DNA from: Phytohabitans houttuyneae
Lineage (GTDB): Bacteria > Actinomycetota > Actinomycetes > Mycobacteriales > Micromonosporaceae
Assembly (NCBI RefSeq): GCF_011764425.1
Contig: NZ_BLPF01000002.1
Coordinates: 1,178,997 to 1,242,996 of the forward strand
Direction of reading: 5' to 3'
Length of the DNA stretch: 64,000 nucleotides
This document shows, one piece after another, positions 54,363-63,244 of the stretch. The translations under genes and the position numbers were made by a program. The notes under the pieces are model-generated. The model saw only the letters and a list, made by a program, of their open reading frames with translations. It searched no databases and was not told where the DNA came from. Position 1 is the stretch's first letter. Every line of letters starts with the position of its first letter.

Positions 54363-57049
54363 GTGCTTGTGGGGCGGCTCGCCGAACGGTCGCGGCTGCA
54401 TCGCCTGATCGGCGACGTGAAAGACGGCGGGAGTCGATCGCTGGTCGTCCGCGGCGAGGCGGGGATCGGCAAGACAGTGCTGCTCGACGACGCCGCACGC
54501 GTCGCCGAGGGGATGCGCGTGCTCCGCGTGGTCGGGACCGAGTCCGAGGCCGAGATCCCGTACGCCGGGCTGCACCTGCTGTTCGCGCGCTTCGCCGAGC
54601 ACTTCGACAGCCTGCCCACCTCGCAGGCGCGGGCGCTGCGGGCGGCGCTGGGCGCCAGCTCCTCCTCCGGCGAGCGGCTGCTCGTGGGCGCCGCGGTCCT
54701 GACCCTGCTGTCCGAGCTGTCGCAGGACCGGCCGGTGCTGTGCCTGGTCGACGACGTGCACTGGTTCGACCAGTCGTCGATCGACGCGCTGCTGTTCGCG
54801 GTGCGCAGGCTGGACGCCGACCCGGTCGGGATGATCTTCGCGGTGCGGGACGGCGACCGGCCGTTTCCCGCCGCCGGGCTCGACAGCGTGACGCTGCGCC
54901 GTCTCGACCCGGCCGACTCCGCCCGCCTGCTGGCGAGCGTGCGGGCGCTGCCCGTCGACGTCGTCGAGCGGGTACTCGAAGAGTCCGCCGGCAACCCGCT
55001 GGCGATCGTGGAGCTGGCCGCCAGCGACGGCGAGGCGTACCGGTCGGCGCCGGTGGCGCCGCTGCCCGCGACCGGGCGGCTGGAGGAGCACTTCCGCGGC
55101 GTGGTCCGCGCGCTGCCGGAGCGCACCCGGCGGGCGTTGCTGCTCGCCGCGGCGGACGAGCGCCCGCTGCTGCGCTCCTTCGTGGACGCCGCCGCCCACC
55201 TGGGGCTTGACGCGTCCGACCTCGAGCCGGCCGAGCGGGGCCGGCTGGTGCAGGTCACGGCCGACACGGTGCGGTTCCGCCACCCGCTGATCCGGGCGTC
55301 GGCGTACCAGGACGCGCCCCTGGTCCAGCGCGTCGCCGCACATCGCGCGCTCGCGGAGACGCTCATCGGCCCCGGCGACGCGGACCGCCGGGCGTGGCAC
55401 CTGGCCGCCGCCGCCACCGGGACCGACGACGTGGCCGCGTCCGAACTGGAACTCGCGGCGCGGCGGGCGGTCGAGCGCGGCGGCCCGGCCGGTGCGGTCC
55501 GGGCGCTGGAGCGGGCCGCGCAGCTGAGCGGCGAGTCAGCCGACCGGGCCCGCCGCCTGATCGGTGCCGCCCGCGCCGCCTACGACGCCGGCCAGCCCGA
55601 ACGCGCCGCGCAGCTCGCGACCACCGGCAGGACGCTGACCAGACGGCCGGTGGAGCAGGCGGAGGCAAGCCTCGTCCTGGCCCAGGTGGCGTACGAGCGG
55701 GAGTCGCCCGCCGCGGCGAGCGCGCGCAGCCTCGACGCCGCGGCGCCCATCCTCACGATCGACGCGGAACGCGCGGCCGCGGCCCTCTTCGAGGCGACCT
55801 GGTGCGCGCGCGACGCCGCCGAGCCCGAACTGCTCGGCCGGTGCGCCGACCAGCTGCGGTCGGTGCGTGACGGTCCGGCGGTGACCTTCGACGCGCTGGT
55901 CGCCTTCACCGACCTGCTACGAGGCGACGTCGCCGCAGCGGTCGGTCCAATGCGGACACTGCTGCACGCCGCCGGTGACGGGCGGGTCGGCGGCACTGTG
56001 GAGGGCATGTTCGCCGGTTTCGCCGGCGTGTTGATCGGCGACGACGCGCCTGCACTGTCGCTTCTGGACGGTCAGGTGTCCGCGCTGCGCGGGCAGGGCG
56101 CGCTCGGCTGGTTGCCGTACGCACTCGAACCGCTCGCCTTCGCCCAGCTGGCCAACGGCCGGTTCCGCAACGCCGAGGCCAGCGTGGCGGAGGCGATGTT
56201 CCTGGCCGGCGAGCTCGGGCTAGGCATGCAGGTCGTGGTGCTCAGCTCCATCTCCGCCTGGCTCGCCGCGGTCCGTGGCGACGGCGCCGCCAGCCGGCAG
56301 CAGGCCGAGCGGGTGCTGACCGACACGCGAAACCACCGCATGGCAACGGCACAGGCGACGTGGGCGCTCGCGCTGCTGGACCTCACTGCCGGCGACCCGA
56401 GCGCCGCGCTGGACCGGCTGGAACAGGTCTGCCAGGGCCCGCCCGGCCGGGACGTGACGCGCCGCGCGGTCGCCGACCACGTCGAAGCCGCGGTGCGCAC
56501 CGGCGACACCGACCGCGCGCGCACGCACCTGCCGTCGCTGGCCGAGTGGGCCAAGCACACCGCGAGCCCGGTGGGCCGCGCGCTCCTGCTGCGCTGTGAG
56601 GCGCTGCTGGCGCACGACACCGAGGCCGGACAGCGCTTCCAGGCGGCGCTGGAGGTCGACGGATGCTCGCCGTACGACATGGCGCGCACCCGGCTGGCGC
56701 ACGGCCAGTGGCTGCGTCGCCATCGCCGCGCCACCGCGGCGCGCGCGCAGCTCACGCAGGCGCTCGAGCTGTTCGAACGGGCCGGCGCCCACGGGTGGCG
56801 GCAGTGCGTGCACGCCGAGTTCACCGCGCTGGGCGACCCGATCCCCGACGCGCACCAGGCCGGCGGCGGCGCCGGCCACCTCACCCCCAGGAGCTTGAGG
56901 TGGTACGCCGCGCCGCCGCCGGCCTCAGCAACCGTGAGATCGCCGCCGAGCTGTTCCTCAGCCCCCGCACCGTCGGCTACCACCTCTACAAGGCGTACCC
57001 GAAGCTGGGCGTCAGCCGGCGCGCGCAGCTGGGCCAGCTCGACCTGTGA
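54363..57049 (+). CDS. LuxR family regulator with N-terminal STAND/AAA ATPase (LAL type), broken by a 1-base frameshift before the HTH
   Basis: The main frame encodes the ATPase (Walker A GEAGIGKT, residues 31-38; Walker B LCLVDDVHWFD) and a long helical TPR-like region. The LuxR helix-turn-helix sits in another frame (QELEVVRRAAAGLSNREIAAELFLSPRTVGYHLYKAYPKLG in outline) ending at 57049. Adding one C to the CCCCC run at 56884-56888 gives HLTPQELEVV and a continuous 895-residue protein, the normal size for LAL regulators. As sequenced, the protein would lose its DNA-binding domain and run on to 57227 in a wrong frame. LAL regulators activate secondary-metabolite or sugar-use genes. GTG 54363 is leaderless-type. 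Confidence 0.87.
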
Positions 57050-57073
57050 GCGCCGGGGGTACCGGCGAGATCC

Positions 57074-60000
57074 TCAGTTGAGGCTGCCCCCCTCGGCGGC
57101 AACAGGGACCGGATCGACCGGCTCGCTGGTCTCCGCCGCGCCGTTGACGTCGACGGCGAACAGGCCGTGGGCGGTACCGACGACAAGAACGGGACCGGGC
57201 AGGAACACCAGCCCGGTCACCGTGTGAGGTGCCGGCACCTCGCAGACCGGAAGGGCGGCGCCGTCGTGTATCGACCAGACCTGCACGGTCGTGCGTCCGA
57301 CGTCGGCGGCGAGCAGCAACGTCCCGGCGCCGCCATCTCCCACCGTGACGAACGTGGCGCTGCCTCGAAGCGCCACGTTCGCCAGGATGCTCACGTCGGC
57401 GTCGAGGGCGTACACGACAAGTTCGTTGGCTCCGAGGGCGACAAGGTATCCGCGACCGTCGGGGAGCACAGCCGTCCAGCGCTGGCGGCGGCTGCTGAGC
57501 GGCGTGAAGTCGCGCATCGGGCTGTCTTCGGTGTCGATGAACCGCACGCCACCGCCGATGTCCAGCACGACCGTGGTGCGGGCGTCGACGGTGGCGGCGG
57601 CGATCGCACGGCACCAACCGGCCGGCCCGGTGAGGCGCCCGAGCAGCTGTCCGTCCTCGGCACTGGTAAACCGGACCTGCTCGCCGCCGTCCGTACTGAC
57701 CACGGCCAGCCTGCCGTCCTGGTGATAACCGGCGAGGGCGATGACGGGGCGCTCGTGGCCGGGGATGCGCATCGGGGCGCCGCTCGCCTCGGGCCGCCAC
57801 ACGAGCACCTCGCCGGAGTCGGTGCCACCCAGGAGCACACCACGGTCGGTGGCACCAAGGGTGCGGACCCGTGAGCCCTCGACCGTCGGCAGCGTCTCCA
57901 CGGTCGCGCCCGTGGCCGCGTCGATGACCTCCACCCGGCCGTCCTCGCCTGCGGCCGCCACCGCCAGCTGGCCGTCACGGACGACCGCGGCCAACGCGAC
58001 CACAGGGCCGCGTGCGGTGGCGGAGAGGGTGCCGGCGTCCAGCGGCCACACGTCGATCCGGCCGTCCACGTGGCCGACCGCCAGCAGCGAACGCCCGTCA
58101 CCGGGCCGGACCGTCACCGAGGAGATGGGTGCGGCGCCGACCGACGCCACCGGCGGCCGCACCGGGGCCAGCGGGTCCCAGGCGTGCAACGCGCCGTCGC
58201 CGTCGACCGCCACGACCGTGCCGCGCCCGTCGGACCCGGTGACCGACGCGACCGAGATGATGCCCGACCGCCGCGAGGCGAGGACGTTGCGGCGTTCACC
58301 GGTGGCGATGTCCCACACCTCGATGCCGGCGTTGGACGCCGTGGCCAGCAGCCCGGGCGGTACCGCCACCGCCGCGGTGAGGTGACCGGGGTTTCCGGAC
58401 AGCATGCCGACCTGCCCGCGCGTCGCCGGGTCCCAGATGGTGACGCGCCCACCGGCCGCGCAGACCAGCAGCTGCCCGCCGGGCTCCTCGACGGTTACCA
58501 GCAGATCGACCGGCGCGCCGGCCTCGCTCGCCCCGGCCAGCGACCAGCCGCCCGTCGCCGCCGGGACCCACCAACGGATGACGGCGTCGCCGCCACCGGT
58601 CACGAGCGTGTCGCCCCCGACCCAGGTGGCCGCGGAGATTGCCGTGGCGGTGACGGCGAGGCGATCGAGCTGTTCACCGGTCCGCAGGTTCCACACGGCG
58701 ACGGTGTCCCGCGCGCACGCCGCGACGAGCAACTGGTCACCGTTGGCATTCCGGGTCACCGCGACGGCGCGCGGGTTGCCGTTGACGCCGTGGACGCGCG
58801 CCGCCACGAGCCCGCTCTCCGGGTTGACGACGCGGACGGTGCCATCCCGGCCCGCGCTCACCAGGAGGTCACCCGGGGCGGCGCGGCCGACCGTGGCGAG
58901 CCGCTCGACCGCGCCGGTGTGTGCCTCCAGGGGAAGCGCGAAGCCGTTGGGCGCCATCCGCGTCCACCGCGGCCACCAGGTCGCCGCACCGCGGCGCAGC
59001 CCGATCGGGTACCCACTGGTGACCGCGACGAGGGCCCGGTACGACGCGCGGTCGGCGACCGGTATGCGCGGCAGCCGGTGCTGGCCCCGCAGGATGGCGA
59101 CCGCGGTGGCCGGCGGCGCCGGATCGGTGGCGAACTGCCGGCCGACCGCGGCGGCCAGCATCGCCTGGTCGAGGTGGTCGCTCGCCCGCTCCAGCGCGAG
59201 AAGGTCGCGGATGACGTCGCCGCGGACGGCGTGCTCGGGCAGGTAGCGCGTCAGGTAGGGGTTCAGCGACGACCAGGCACGGCTCTCGGCCAGCGCGATG
59301 AGCGCGAACGCCGCCTGCCGGTGGCCGCGCTGTGTCCCGGCCGGGTCGTCGCGGAAATGTTCGATGAAGGTCTGGTGCGCCAGCCGGTACGTGCCCTGCT
59401 CGTCCTCGCCGTCGAGGGTGATGTACGGGGCGGCCAGCTCGAGCACCTGGTCGAGGTCGTCCGGCGTGATCCGCTCGCCGGGCGAGGTGGCCTCGGCGAT
59501 GGTGGTCCAGATGCGGTCCTGGCGGGGCAGCCCTCGGCCGCGGGCGAAGGAAAGCGCCCGCAGGGCCCGTACCGTGTTCGGCACCGACGCGGTGAGCCGC
59601 TCGACCGCGGCGCGGAACAGGCCGCGGTGCCCGCCGTCGAGCACCTCGGCAAGCTGGTCGGCCAGCGTGTCCTCGTCGAGCGGTGGGCGGCGCATCAGCT
59701 CGTAGGCGGCCAGCCTGGCGAACAGGAAAGGCTGCTGGTACCCGGCGACCGCCCGACCGATCCGCTCCGCCAGCCGCTCCCGGTGCTGATAGGGCGAGCC
59801 AGCCGTGGTCAGCAACCGCTCGGTCACGTAGTCCGCGGCGGCGTCACTGTCGGCGCCGACCTCGATCGTCGTCGCTCGATCGCCGAGCGCGAGGAGCAGC
59901 TCGCGGTCGGTGGGTGCGGGCAGGTCCGGGCCTTCGCGCAGCGACTGCCGGGTGCCCACGATGACGCGTACACCGGGCGCGTCGCCCAGCGTCTTCAACA

Positions 60001-61258
60001 GGTTGCTGGCGATGACGCGCGGCTCCGCCGCCTCGTCGAGGGCATCGGCGAGCACCGTGACCCGCACCGTGACGCCGCTGCGGCCCGAGTTCAGCTCGCG
60101 CAGGCGGGAGACGATCTGCTGCACGTCGTCGTTCGGCCCGAGGCTGAGCCGTGCGGTCAGACCCTCCCGCACGATCTGGAGGCAGTCGACGAACCGCAGG
60201 CCGGTCAGGTGCAGGACGACGTCGAACACGTTGTCCGGCGGCCGGTGCTCGTCGCGGGCGCCGGCCCTCGGCCACACCTTGACCATCGCCTCCCGCAGGC
60301 CCGGGTTGGCCAGCATCACCAAGCGTCCGAGCAGGGCCGACTTGCCAGAGCCCGCCCGGCCGGTCACGACCACCAGCCCGTCGGTGTGTCCACGTAGCCA
60401 CGCCGCCAGCCATACGACCTCGGCGTCCCGGCCCCGGAAGTACCAGGCCAACTCGCCGAGCTCGCCGCCCTGGGCCTTGGTCAGGAAGTGTGAGCGCAGC
60501 GCGGGCGTCAGCCGCCGCAGCTCCGCCATCACGTCGAGCGTCGCGGTGACGACACCGTCTGTGGTGTCGGGGTTGGGCAGCACCGCGTCGCGGGTCAGCC
60601 CGAGAAGGTGCAGCACCGCCTCGTCGCCGAGCTCTTCCCGGATGTCCTGGAGCAGCCCGGACAGCCGGATCGGGTGGTCATTCTCGGTGTACCGCGCGAG
60701 CGCGCTGGTCAGTGCCGCGGCGAACCGGCCACTGTAGCCGGCGGAGGAACCTGTGGTGCCGAGCAGCGCCAGCTGCCGGGGCCGGCGGCTGGACTGGCTT
60801 GTCAAAGCGGCGACGATGTTGTCGATGCCGACGCCGGCGCCACACGCGTCGAGCACCAGGATCGTCCACGGTGGTGGGTCGTCGTCATCCAGCAGCGCGG
60901 AGCGATGGTGCCAGTTTTCCCGCAGGTAGCGCACCAGGTCGACGGAGAGGACACCGTGCACGCGGTGGCTGGCGTAAGGCGTGTCGGCGCAGAGCAGGAC
61001 GTGCTCGTAGCCGTCGGTGGCGCCGTGCCCGCCCCAGTAGATGAGAGAGGATCCGGCGCGCTCGTCGGTCGCCCATTCGCCCAACAGTTCCAGTACGTCC
61101 GCCCGGGATTCGCCGGCCGGACGGCGGACCGTGCCGCCTCCGAATTGGCGCAACGCGCCGACGATGGTGTCGGCATTGGCGTCGGCCTCAGGCAGGGCAC
61201 CCGGTGGGTCGTGCTCATAAGCGCTGACCGCGATCACCACTTGGCTGAAGGCCGTCAC
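57074..61258 (-). CDS. Caspase-like protease fused to STAND NTPase and WD40-type repeats
   Basis: 1394 residues, no signal peptide. Residues 1-200 are a caspase/C14 fold: QVVIAVSAYEHD, then SLIYWGGHGATDG with His78 and ILVLDACGAGVG with Cys129, the caspase dyad. FRGRDAEVVWLAAWL leads into a STAND NTPase: Walker A GRAGSGKS (290-297), Walker B TVLADALDEA (near 395-399), sensor RVIVGTRQSL, then a winged-helix or arm region to about residue 790. About 580 residues of WD40-like repeats follow (VSAGRDGTVRVVNPESG, GGDAVIRWWVP, VGHVDGRIDVWPL). This is a sensor-NTPase-protease arrangement typical of bacterial conflict and signalling proteins. GTG 61258 begins right at the first caspase strand; the frame stays open to 61303. 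Divergent from the LCAT-like gene. Confidence 0.88.
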   Translation of the reverse strand: MTAFSQVVIAVSAYEHDPPGALPEADANADTIVGALRQFGGGTVRRPAGESRADVLELLGEWATDERAGSSLIYWGGHGATDGYEHVLLCADTPYASHRVHGVLSVDLVRYLRENWHHRSALLDDDDPPPWTILVLDACGAGVGIDNIVAALTSQSSRRPRQLALLGTTGSSAGYSGRFAAALTSALARYTENDHPIRLSGLLQDIREELGDEAVLHLLGLTRDAVLPNPDTTDGVVTATLDVMAELRRLTPALRSHFLTKAQGGELGELAWYFRGRDAEVVWLAAWLRGHTDGLVVVTGRAGSGKSALLGRLVMLANPGLREAMVKVWPRAGARDEHRPPDNVFDVVLHLTGLRFVDCLQIVREGLTARLSLGPNDDVQQIVSRLRELNSGRSGVTVRVTVLADALDEAAEPRVIASNLLKTLGDAPGVRVIVGTRQSLREGPDLPAPTDRELLLALGDRATTIEVGADSDAAADYVTERLLTTAGSPYQHRERLAERIGRAVAGYQQPFLFARLAAYELMRRPPLDEDTLADQLAEVLDGGHRGLFRAAVERLTASVPNTVRALRALSFARGRGLPRQDRIWTTIAEATSPGERITPDDLDQVLELAAPYITLDGEDEQGTYRLAHQTFIEHFRDDPAGTQRGHRQAAFALIALAESRAWSSLNPYLTRYLPEHAVRGDVIRDLLALERASDHLDQAMLAAAVGRQFATDPAPPATAVAILRGQHRLPRIPVADRASYRALVAVTSGYPIGLRRGAATWWPRWTRMAPNGFALPLEAHTGAVERLATVGRAAPGDLLVSAGRDGTVRVVNPESGLVAARVHGVNGNPRAVAVTRNANGDQLLVAACARDTVAVWNLRTGEQLDRLAVTATAISAATWVGGDTLVTGGGDAVIRWWVPAATGGWSLAGASEAGAPVDLLVTVEEPGGQLLVCAAGGRVTIWDPATRGQVGMLSGNPGHLTAAVAVPPGLLATASNAGIEVWDIATGERRNVLASRRSGIISVASVTGSDGRGTVVAVDGDGALHAWDPLAPVRPPVASVGAAPISSVTVRPGDGRSLLAVGHVDGRIDVWPLDAGTLSATARGPVVALAAVVRDGQLAVAAAGEDGRVEVIDAATGATVETLPTVEGSRVRTLGATDRGVLLGGTDSGEVLVWRPEASGAPMRIPGHERPVIALAGYHQDGRLAVVSTDGGEQVRFTSAEDGQLLGRLTGPAGWCRAIAAATVDARTTVVLDIGGGVRFIDTEDSPMRDFTPLSSRRQRWTAVLPDGRGYLVALGANELVVYALDADVSILANVALRGSATFVTVGDGGAGTLLLAADVGRTTVQVWSIHDGAALPVCEVPAPHTVTGLVFLPGPVLVVGTAHGLFAVDVNGAAETSEPVDPVPVAAEGGSLN

Positions 61259-61278
61259 GCAATGGAACACTAGGCCGT

Positions 61279-62613
61279 GTGGCGTCCACAGTCGATCGAT
61301 CACGCAGTGCTGACGCAGTCATCTTTCTGCCAGGTTTGTTGGGCAGTGAGCTGCGCGACGCCGCCGACCGGGTCGTGTGGGGGCTGCGCCCGAGCCTGCT
61401 GGTCGAGGCGCTCGGCAGCACCGCGGGCCGGCGCCGGCTGCTGCACACGCTGGCCGATGTGGACACACCGCTGGCCGCCGTGCGGCCCATGACCGTGGCC
61501 GCGGGCCTTCCCCGGCTCGGCACCGTCGAGTCCAATGTTCCGATACTGCGTCGGCTCCGCCGGGAAGCCGTTCGCGAGCCCGACGCGTTCGTGGCCTTTC
61601 CCTATGACTGGCGGCAGCCGGTCGAGGCGGTGGCGAGCCGGTTCGCTGATTTCGCCGAGGCGCATCTGCGGCGGTGGCGGCGCAATCCACTCGGTGGTCC
61701 GGAGGCGATGCTGAGCCTGGTCTGCCACTCGATGGGGGGACTTGTCGCCCAGCATTTCGTCGACGTCCTCGGCGGTCGCGATAGCGTCCGGACCACCATC
61801 ACGCTCGGCACTCCGTTCTACGGTTCCATTCGTGCGGTCACCGCGATAGCCGAAGGGCCGGCGGCGCCGTTCGGGGGGATGCGCCGGACCATGCGGGATC
61901 TGGCGCGTGCCTTTCCGTCGATCTACGACCTGCTGCCCCGATACCGTTGCGTGGTGGCCGGCGACGGCCTGCGGGCGCTGACCGTCGCCGACGTCGCGTC
62001 TGTCGGCGGCGACGCCGGCCTCGCCGAGGCGGCCAACGCCCGCCACGCCCGTGCCGCGGCGGCCCGCGCGAAAGCGGGCCCCGGCGGCCTGCGGGCCCGG
62101 GTCGGGCTCGCCCAGCCCACCGCGCAGACGGTGCGCTTCGACAGCGGCGCGGCGTACCCCTTGTTTCATCACGGCGGGGAAGACCGCGGCGGCGACGGCA
62201 CGGTGGCCCGCGACGCCGCGGCACCGGCCGGCGCCCAGCCGCACTACGTGCCGCAGAAGCACGCACGGCTGGCGACGACCGCCGAGGCGTTCGAGTTTGT
62301 CCGCGCTGTGCTCACCGAGCGTCCACTCGGCGAGCCGCTCGGCGACGGCTTCGGCGTCGACCTGCCCGAAGTCGTGCGACCAGGCGAACCCTTCGAGGTG
62401 ATCGTCCGCCTGCCGCCCGGAGTGCCGGCGACGTGCGTGGTGACCGACACCGAGACCGAGCGGCAGGTGGCCGTCGTGGAGCCGCGCCCGCGCGACGGGT
62501 GGCAGGTCGCCGCGGTGACCCTGCCCAGCCCGGGGCTCTACCGGGCCGACGTCAAGGCCGGCGGGTTCAGTGCCGTGGGCGACCTGGTCCTGGCGATCGC
62601 CGATCTCGACTGA
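61279..62613 (+). CDS. LCAT-like lipase/acyltransferase
   Basis: 444 residues, no signal peptide. AVIFLPGLLGSELRD is the oxyanion-hole segment of the lecithin:cholesterol acyltransferase family, FVAFPYDWRQP the LCAT-specific block, LVCHSMGGLVAQHF the nucleophile elbow (Ser151), GGDGTVARDAA supplies Asp306 and VPQKHARLA His328. ITLGTPFYGS is also diagnostic. The last 95 residues form an Ig-like beta domain (PGEPFEVIVRLPPGVPATCVVTD). LCAT-type enzymes cut or transfer acyl chains of phospholipids. A cytoplasmic phospholipase next to a caspase-STAND protein suggests a membrane-attacking effector, but that is inference. GTG 61279 is the only in-frame start; no ribosome site is visible. Its start is 20 bases from the caspase gene start. 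Confidence 0.85.
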   Translation: MASTVDRSRSADAVIFLPGLLGSELRDAADRVVWGLRPSLLVEALGSTAGRRRLLHTLADVDTPLAAVRPMTVAAGLPRLGTVESNVPILRRLRREAVREPDAFVAFPYDWRQPVEAVASRFADFAEAHLRRWRRNPLGGPEAMLSLVCHSMGGLVAQHFVDVLGGRDSVRTTITLGTPFYGSIRAVTAIAEGPAAPFGGMRRTMRDLARAFPSIYDLLPRYRCVVAGDGLRALTVADVASVGGDAGLAEAANARHARAAAARAKAGPGGLRARVGLAQPTAQTVRFDSGAAYPLFHHGGEDRGGDGTVARDAAAPAGAQPHYVPQKHARLATTAEAFEFVRAVLTERPLGEPLGDGFGVDLPEVVRPGEPFEVIVRLPPGVPATCVVTDTETERQVAVVEPRPRDGWQVAAVTLPSPGLYRADVKAGGFSAVGDLVLAIADLD

Positions 62614-62707: not shown

Positions 62708-63244
62708 TTGACGGACCGGCGAGACCAGGACTACGTCGCGTACGTGGGTCCGCGGCTGGAGCGGCTGCGCCGGGTCGCCTACCTGCTGTGCCACGACTGG
62801 CATCGCGCCGATGACCTGGTGCAGGTCACGGTGACCCGGCTGTACGTGCACTGGCGCCGCGTGCAGGGCGCGGACGACATCGATCGGTACGTGCACCGGA
62901 TCCTGATCAACGCTTTCCTCAGCGAGCGCCGGAAGGCTTCGTCCCGGGAGACGCCGGTCCGCCAGCTGCCGGACACGGCCGCGCCGCAGGTGGACGAGGC
63001 GACCACGTTCGCGGTGCGTGCGGCGCTGGCGCGGGTGCCGGCGCGGCAGCGGGCCACGATCGTGCTGCGTTTCTACTGCGACCTGACCGTCGAGCAGGCC
63101 GCCGAGGTGCTCAGCTGCTCCGCCGGCACCGTCAAGAGCCAGACGGCGAAAGGGCTGACCCGGCTGCGCGAGGTGTGGCACGGGCAGCGGGTGCCGGCCC
63201 CGCGGCTCGCGTCCGGAACGCCGCGCGCCGCCCACGAGGACTAG
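62708..63244 (+). CDS. SigE family RNA polymerase sigma factor
   Basis: 178 residues. Region 2: DYVAYVGPRLERLRRVAYLLCHDWHRADDLVQVTVTRLYVHWRRV in outline (DDLVQVTVTRLY in the core); region 4: LARVPARQRATIVLRFYCDLTVEQAAEVLSCSAGTVKSQTAKGLTRLR in outline (PARQRATIVLRF, AGTVKSQTAKGL). The layout is the SigE family of actinobacteria. It starts with TTG 62708, supported by gggagg 5 bases upstream. The next gene follows after 10 bases with aggagg between, so the two form a sigma/membrane-protein pair like that at 38157-39558. Confidence 0.9.
   Translation: MTDRRDQDYVAYVGPRLERLRRVAYLLCHDWHRADDLVQVTVTRLYVHWRRVQGADDIDRYVHRILINAFLSERRKASSRETPVRQLPDTAAPQVDEATTFAVRAALARVPARQRATIVLRFYCDLTVEQAAEVLSCSAGTVKSQTAKGLTRLREVWHGQRVPAPRLASGTPRAAHED

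Follow-up and report, generated by a model that had tools for sequence, protein, structure and literature searches.

Nucleases encoded beside trypsin-like or caspase proteases have been described as proenzymes, and other classes of proteolytically activated enzymes have been called possible (Tuck et al., 2025, PMC12799240). In VMAP (MoxR-vWA) ternary systems, the caspase always occurs with a neighboring α/β-hydrolase gene, and joint operation of the two was suggested; transglutaminase-like peptidases appear in these systems on rare occasions, and a related hydrolase has been named in GAP1-N1 systems (Kaur et al., 2020, PMC7159879). Metacaspase-NACHT-WD40 proteins are widely distributed (PMC3501461, published in 2012), and the fusion partners of bacterial Death-like domains include an α/β-hydrolase (PMC8195603). 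What we say of these papers refers to the parts of their text covered here. We analyzed a stretch of 64,000 nucleotides from Phytohabitans houttuyneae (Micromonosporaceae, Actinomycetes; contig NZ_BLPF01000002.1 of assembly GCF_011764425.1, positions 1,178,997–1,242,996; hereafter the window), which carries a divergent gene pair encoding a caspase-STAND-WD40 protein (P0001, the switch protein) and a lipase (P0002) resembling LCAT and lysosomal phospholipase A2 (LPLA2). This lipase family adjoins a cysteine-protease domain at 51 of 54 loci in three samples of genomes, and since it keeps turning up alongside protease genes in distant bacteria, the lipase and the switch probably work as one self-destruct or defense device.

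Since a caspase with an α/β-hydrolase was reported for VMAP systems (Kaur et al., 2020), the principle of the pairing is already in print. The VMAP caspase stands beside a hydrolase as in our pair, whereas here the caspase is fused to a STAND-WD40 protein. Membership in a VMAP system was rejected, as a VMAP-C protein had no match in the P. houttuyneae genome at E 0.001 and none of 20 sampled VMAP loci, chosen for long frames, carried our lipase family (only two of the 20 had a caspase by profile, and their hydrolase was not pinned down). The EACC1-caspase two-gene system of the same study shares the closest caspase model with P0001, but its caspase adjoins an EACC1 protein with one transmembrane segment, unlike the soluble lipase found here (the other genes were not searched for EACC1). 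In the nuclease-protease pairs of Tuck et al. (2025) and in canu, a toxic enzyme is encoded beside a protease fused to an immune protein, STAND proteins included, and one effector family accompanies both trypsin-like and caspase proteases, much as one lipase family accompanies several protease folds here. Likewise, the effector gene of our pair is linked to, and co-diverges with, a sensor-fused protease. The effector of Tuck et al. is a metallo-β-lactamase-fold nuclease, whereas ours is a phospholipase-like lipase without a clear gating insertion, having short low-confidence stretches only. P0001 has the same three-part architecture as the metacaspase-NACHT-WD40 proteins, one of which has a GDSL-like lipase fused to its metacaspase; an LCAT-type partner is absent from the covered text of that paper (PMC3501461). 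Among the papers listed in our literature searches, none was found to describe a caspase-STAND protein with an LCAT-type lipase next to it; the searches did not extend to supplements, where Kaur et al. may list such loci.

Strong lipase loci were collected from three samples, and we refer to individual loci by L numbers. The family of the host showed a patchy spread, with 31 strong places in 25 of 200 genomes, for which 9–10 kb on each side of the lipase (less at contig ends) were examined. The class sample (394 genomes) contributed 12 strong places outside the family, with a threshold set after the score gap was seen: 15 places outside the family exceeded 100 bits, 14 of them were examined, and 12 entered the count, each scoring 248 bits or more. 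Of the remainder, L238 (150 bits, at a contig end), which carries a transglutaminase-like domain, was dropped, and L239 was placed in the controls. Named genomes were scanned with a single pattern containing HSMGGL, 80 loci being kept among the matches listed; this gave at least 13 strong loci, of which L120 and L127 were dropped as presumed duplicates, since their contigs equal in length contigs already counted. Gene calling relied on stop-to-stop frames together with third-position GC. Family and control loci served for iterating the caspase and STAND profiles, and the CHAT and transglutaminase-like profiles were built from partners found here (L098, L125, L234, and L238 not among the builders).

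A caspase, CHAT (once a fragment) or transglutaminase-like neighbor was recognized at 29 of 31 loci in the family, 11 of 12 in the class, and 11 of 11 in the named genomes (the last among the matches listed). The family partners comprise 20 caspase-STAND proteins, two caspases (L089 and L094), one CHAT protein with nSTAND1 (L088), five transglutaminase-like proteases fused to STAND (L097, L099, L101, L104, and L105), and a CHAT fragment 47 bases upstream of the lipase (L098). Outside the family, the class sample showed nine caspase-STAND and two transglutaminase-like partners (L236 and L234). Five of the named-genome partners are caspase-STAND proteins (L116 from Acidimicrobiia, L118 from Streptomyces, L122 from Lentzea, L123 from Actinocrinis, and L124 from Streptantibioticus). 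Three others are CHAT proteins (L117, Kitasatospora; L119, Solirubrobacter; L121, Mesorhizobium) and three are transglutaminase-like (L126, Actinomadura; L129, Streptomyces; L125, Coleofasciculus), the Coleofasciculus domain being fused to TPR and a PIN domain. The transglutaminase-like assignment relies on a Cys and a His invariant in eight of eight aligned domains, with an acidic residue downstream, and on Pfam matches to DUF553 and to Transglut_core in four of the eight members each; the profile gave no significant match in the PDB. In the genome of P. houttuyneae itself, all four lipases found adjoin a caspase-STAND gene. Besides the pair in the window, contig C2 of this genome (G000) holds three further pairs (L085, L102, and L093) in a stretch of about 75 kb (1.678–1.753 Mb), along with one more caspase-STAND gene; the L102 lipase is split over two frames.

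As controls we took weaker α/β-hydrolases from the same searches, 10 from the family (of 42 weaker places) and seven from the class. With the caspase profile alone, 22 of 31 family and nine of 12 class loci matched, vs. none of the 10 and none of the seven controls; with all protease profiles, an adjoining match was seen in none of the 10 family and two of the seven class controls. Three family controls had a CHAT match 5–6 kb away and none had one within 500 bases. The two matching class controls, L239 and L241, showed a weak CHAT match (20–22 bits) about 330–345 bases away; of the seven, they score highest with the lipase profile (120 and 111 bits) and may be real family members. Chance adjacency was rejected on these counts, and the link between lipase and protease genes is right and general. 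The original prediction, a conflict or cell-suicide module read from the sequence of the window, had been staked on the two genes not being rare neighbors in other genomes, and the comparison came out in favor of the pair. It had missed that the protease partner can be a CHAT or transglutaminase-like protein instead of a caspase, and also that a caspase paired with an α/β-hydrolase had already been published for VMAP systems.

The switch protein is encoded by a minus-strand open reading frame (57077–61303) in the order of caspase fold, STAND NTPase, and degenerate WD40 propeller, and its start at GTG 61258 (V16 of the frame) is assumed. The histidine of the GHG motif and the cysteine of DACGAG are residues 93 and 154 of the frame, or His78 and Cys139 from this start; the predicted dyad is thus intact with the histidine as numbered, but the cysteine had been miscounted as Cys129. 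Both residues are present in every one of the 22 relatives aligned, which were taken from 29 caspase-profile matches after seven broken, weak or second matches were left out. The caspase domain stays under the curated cut-off (NF047832, 29.9 vs. 140 bits), and of the NCBIfam caspase models it comes closest to the EACC1-associated one; the P0001 locus was not among the matches listed for PF00656 in its own genome. In the PDB, the family profile of this caspase picked up metacaspase-4 and MALT1 as well as a CHAT protein. As had been claimed, the Walker A (GRAGSGKS) and Walker B (LADALDE) motifs are intact, and they are invariant in six of six sequences; P0001 falls below the cut-off of single AAA/NACHT models among the matches listed. 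The STAND core of the P0001 model, with a mean predicted local distance difference test (pLDDT) score of 68.6, matched Apaf-1 at 3.8e-9 in Foldseek, the best fold match of the switch, and the STAND part as modeled is Apaf-1-like. The WD40 repeats, too, were borne out (34.4 vs. a Pfam cut-off of 27 bits). P0001 has STAND and WD40 in common with the Apaf-1 apoptosome. Apaf-1 recruits caspase-9 through CARD, whereas the caspase of P0001 resides in the same chain as the STAND domain.

The lipase gene is a plus-strand open reading frame (61279–62610) encoding the lipase domain and an Ig-like tail. P0002 exceeds the Pfam cut-off for LCAT (42.2 vs. 21 bits), and its closest solved fold is lysosomal phospholipase A2, followed by Tle4 and LCAT. 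P0002 is a candidate for phospholipase or acyltransferase activity. The catalytic triad, Ser151, Asp306, and His328, is in place exactly as predicted, and the foreseen Ig-like domain appeared in the structure model and fold search as a filamin/Ig-like C-terminal β-sandwich. In alignment A1, the Ser is kept in 29 of the 30 rows with a residue there (the L102 row does not reach it), the Asp in 31 of 31, and the His in 30 of 31. All three are found in 14 of 14 rows of alignment A3, where the Ser is invariant by selection because the scan behind 13 of the 14 rows required HSMGGL. P0002 has no transmembrane stretch and no NCBIfam match. Only 17 residues, without a strongly hydrophobic stretch, precede the PG motif, and no signal peptide fits as judged by hydropathy and length, no dedicated predictor being used; this agrees with the original prediction. 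Because such a peptide would not fit, a secreted lipase was rejected, and the lipase is probably cytosolic. The animal LCAT and group XV phospholipase A2 enzymes are secreted or lysosomal and have a signal peptide; P0002 shares their Pfam family, fold, and triad but not that peptide. A phage-borne lipase was also rejected, with no match in 50,697 phage records.

The arrangement of the pair varies. The lipase lies upstream or downstream of the protease gene, divergent from it or convergent with it (L092), and the sensor is WD40 (L076, L080, and L102) or TPR (L087, L091, and L093). At L076, the WD40 part has a gene of its own on the far side of the lipase, and at L094 a caspase and a lipase-profile match lie within one protein. 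Caspase and CHAT genes without a visible STAND domain also pair with the lipase. Across 31 loci, lipase and STAND distances correlate with a Mantel r of 0.822, reached by none of 5000 permutations, as one would expect of genes that travel together and without implying contact, and the nearest relative is identical for both proteins at 16 of the 31 loci. In a same-genus relative (L083:8168-15349), the caspase-STAND-WD40 part of the pair is broken over several frames, and at L081:4199-14572 the lipase lies between two caspase-STAND-WD40 genes, of which one is divergent and the other follows downstream on the strand of the lipase.

In a reverse test, we took 20 caspase/STAND places without a lipase match. 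The closest relative (L206:5724-10029) is a caspase-STAND-WD40 gene with a short N-terminal lipase remnant directly upstream. The other 19 had no lipase in the stretch examined (two contigs are under 4 kb), and eight of the 20 had no caspase match either. One branch of caspase-STAND-WD40 proteins is thus accompanied by the lipase, and other branches lack it. A separate association of caspase and lipase was also seen, in which a caspase-like gene (frames of 271–450 residues) lies beside a large lipase-domain protein (frames of 1690–2235 residues) at L142, L148, L151, L156 (cut by the contig end), L158, L170, L172, L174, L179, L181, and L187. The large proteins of L151 (Mycolicibacterium) and L158 (Nitrospira) match Pfam DUF7379, LCAT, CHAT, and TPR-S. 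The caspase matches are weak (14–28 bits) at L172, the neighbor of L174, L179 (downstream), and L187, and L134, L150, L152, L164, and L178 are among the large lipase proteins without a caspase match.

Plasmids carry the lipase as well: 32 plasmid records matched it at E 1e-5, and in 22 of these the match spans 80% or more of the lipase. Streptomyces accounts for 22 of the 32 records, and nine of the 32 plasmids are predicted to be conjugative. Three Streptomyces plasmids have a divergent pair of a lipase homologue and a STAND-WD40 gene, separated in the annotation by 20, 19, and 20 base pairs (bp). For the P. houttuyneae lipase, GTG 61279 is the first possible start because of an in-frame TAG at 61270. 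Gaps between candidate starts elsewhere are 26 bp at L116 (a metagenome-assembled genome of Acidimicrobiia), 20 bp at L228, about 60–80 bp at L229, and at least 400 bp at L230. The close divergent starts suggest shared expression of the pair.

We propose that the two genes function as a single unit in which a protease switch gates the lipase, a reading to which we give a probability of about one half. The WD40 propeller would sense a trigger, perhaps an invader or a product of damage, upon which the STAND NTPase would form an Apaf-1-like oligomer, bring the fused caspase domains together, and turn them on. The active caspase would then unleash the neighboring cytosolic phospholipase, probably restrained until the protease acts, either directly or via a few substrates, and the phospholipase would degrade the cell's own membrane, so that the cell is killed or arrested. 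We infer the order of sensor, STAND oligomer, protease, and lipase as the most economical one because the element shared across the partners is a cysteine protease, whose fold varies, as does the sensor. The mechanism as a whole is plausible.

Several observations weigh against this proposal. Its weakest link is the lipase as a zymogen, because apart from the ends only residues 75–81 and 350–356 of the P0002 model have a pLDDT below 50 and no long disordered gate stands out over the active site; in alignment A1, no conserved basic residue or cleavage site stands out in the lipase linker. Alternatively, recruitment or de-repression may bring the lipase into action. Three of the 54 lipases lack a recognized protease neighbor, L100 and L103 within the stretch examined and L235 with the caspase, CHAT, and transglutaminase-like profiles, and the L103 lipase has lost Ser and His. 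Since many caspase-STAND-WD40 proteins have no lipase nearby, the lipase is not the sole route of their action. Among four plasmid loci examined, the caspase profile matches only one (L281, 44 bits); L278 has no caspase, STAND, CHAT or transglutaminase-like profile match, and the other two, divergent Streptomyces pairs, have GHG and NMC motifs in the same region without a caspase-profile match. A role in phage defense is a guess from the architecture. PADLOC found on the pair only mad8 on the switch protein (E 0.0023) and nothing on the lipase. Around 18 of the 31 pair loci (up to six genes each, none over 900 residues) it assigned 13 families over 88 neighbor genes, one gene each, vs. 26 families over 54 neighbor genes around nine control loci. 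Defense genes are therefore no commoner near the pair than near controls, and there is no defense-island signal. The predicted company of other defense genes was thus not found; what held up of the conflict or suicide module is a recurrent lipase/protease-switch unit with an Apaf-1-like STAND part, conserved active sites, and a probably cytosolic lipase.

The missing enrichment of defense genes fits the chief rival, namely that the same device serves developmental or stress-induced lysis in a filamentous actinomycete, in hyphal death or sporulation, rather than phage defense. It would also suit the distribution, since 11 of the 13 strong named carriers (among the matches listed) belong to what we take to be Actinomycetota, and most plasmid records come from Streptomyces; by design, however, the family and class samples consist of relatives of the window. 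The three additional pairs, which lie within some 75 kb of one another in a different part of this genome, point the same way. However, patchy presence, plasmid copies, and exchange of sensor and protease look more like conflict systems than conserved development, and we regard a developmental role as rather unlikely, if the most serious competitor.

Linkage and co-divergence give no direction of action, so the lipase could also lie upstream, its lipid product or a membrane change being sensed by the STAND-caspase, or it could be a guarded target that the caspase destroys. Against both variants, the common element is the protease and not the STAND sensor, as caspase and CHAT genes without a visible STAND domain pair with the lipase too, and we consider such an arrangement quite improbable. 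Ordinary lipases share the fold of P0002, which would suit an enzyme of lipid metabolism placed here by local accident; the counts in the three samples and in the host's own genome, set against the controls, make this extremely unlikely. The protease-gated lipase is the reading we favor; the coordinates of the parts of the pair are given in Table 1.

Table 1. Coordinates of the features of the gene pair in the window.
Feature	Position	Strand	Basis and details
Caspase-fold protease domain, P0001 residues 16–270	60494..61258	-	Profile matches, alignment; His codon 61025–61027, Cys codon 60842–60844
STAND NTPase, Apaf-1/CED-4-like, P0001 residues about 271–770	58994..60493	-	Motifs, fold match; Walker A Lys codon 60341–60343, Walker B Asp codon 60035–60037
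WD40-like repeats, putative degenerate β-propeller sensor region, P0001 residues about 785–1409	57077..58951	-	Pfam WD40
20-bp gap between head-to-head start codons	61259..61278	no strand	Caspase GTG 61258 (assumed) to lipase GTG 61279
LPLA2/LCAT-like lipase domain of P0002	61306..62325	+	Pfam, fold; Ser151 61729–61731, Asp306 62194–62196, His328 62260–62262
C-terminal Ig/filamin-like β-sandwich of P0002	62350..62598	+	Structure model; after low-confidence linker residues 350–356

About 95 bases downstream of the lipase and on the same strand lies a gene for a SigE-family extracytoplasmic function sigma factor (62708–63241; TIGR02983, 147.7 vs. 141.55 bits). On the other side of the pair, a LuxR-type regulator with an AAA_16 domain (54363–57227) has its helix-turn-helix end in another reading frame (56663–57049), with an apparent frameshift near 56.9 kb.

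A lipase family that keeps company with proteases of several folds is a concrete and testable candidate. We advance more tentatively, as possible but somewhat short of even odds, that LPLA2/LCAT-fold phospholipase zymogens are a further class of protease-gated death effectors in bacteria, alongside gasdermins and gated nucleases. Such zymogens would have been joined several times with caspase, CHAT, and transglutaminase-like proteases as well as with interchangeable STAND sensors (WD40 and TPR), and would cause a membrane-dissolving, pyroptosis-like death. If the protease does switch the lipase on, the pair would be a bacterial lipase counterpart of caspase-gasdermin death, with the sensor, the Apaf-1-like NTPase, and the caspase in one polypeptide.

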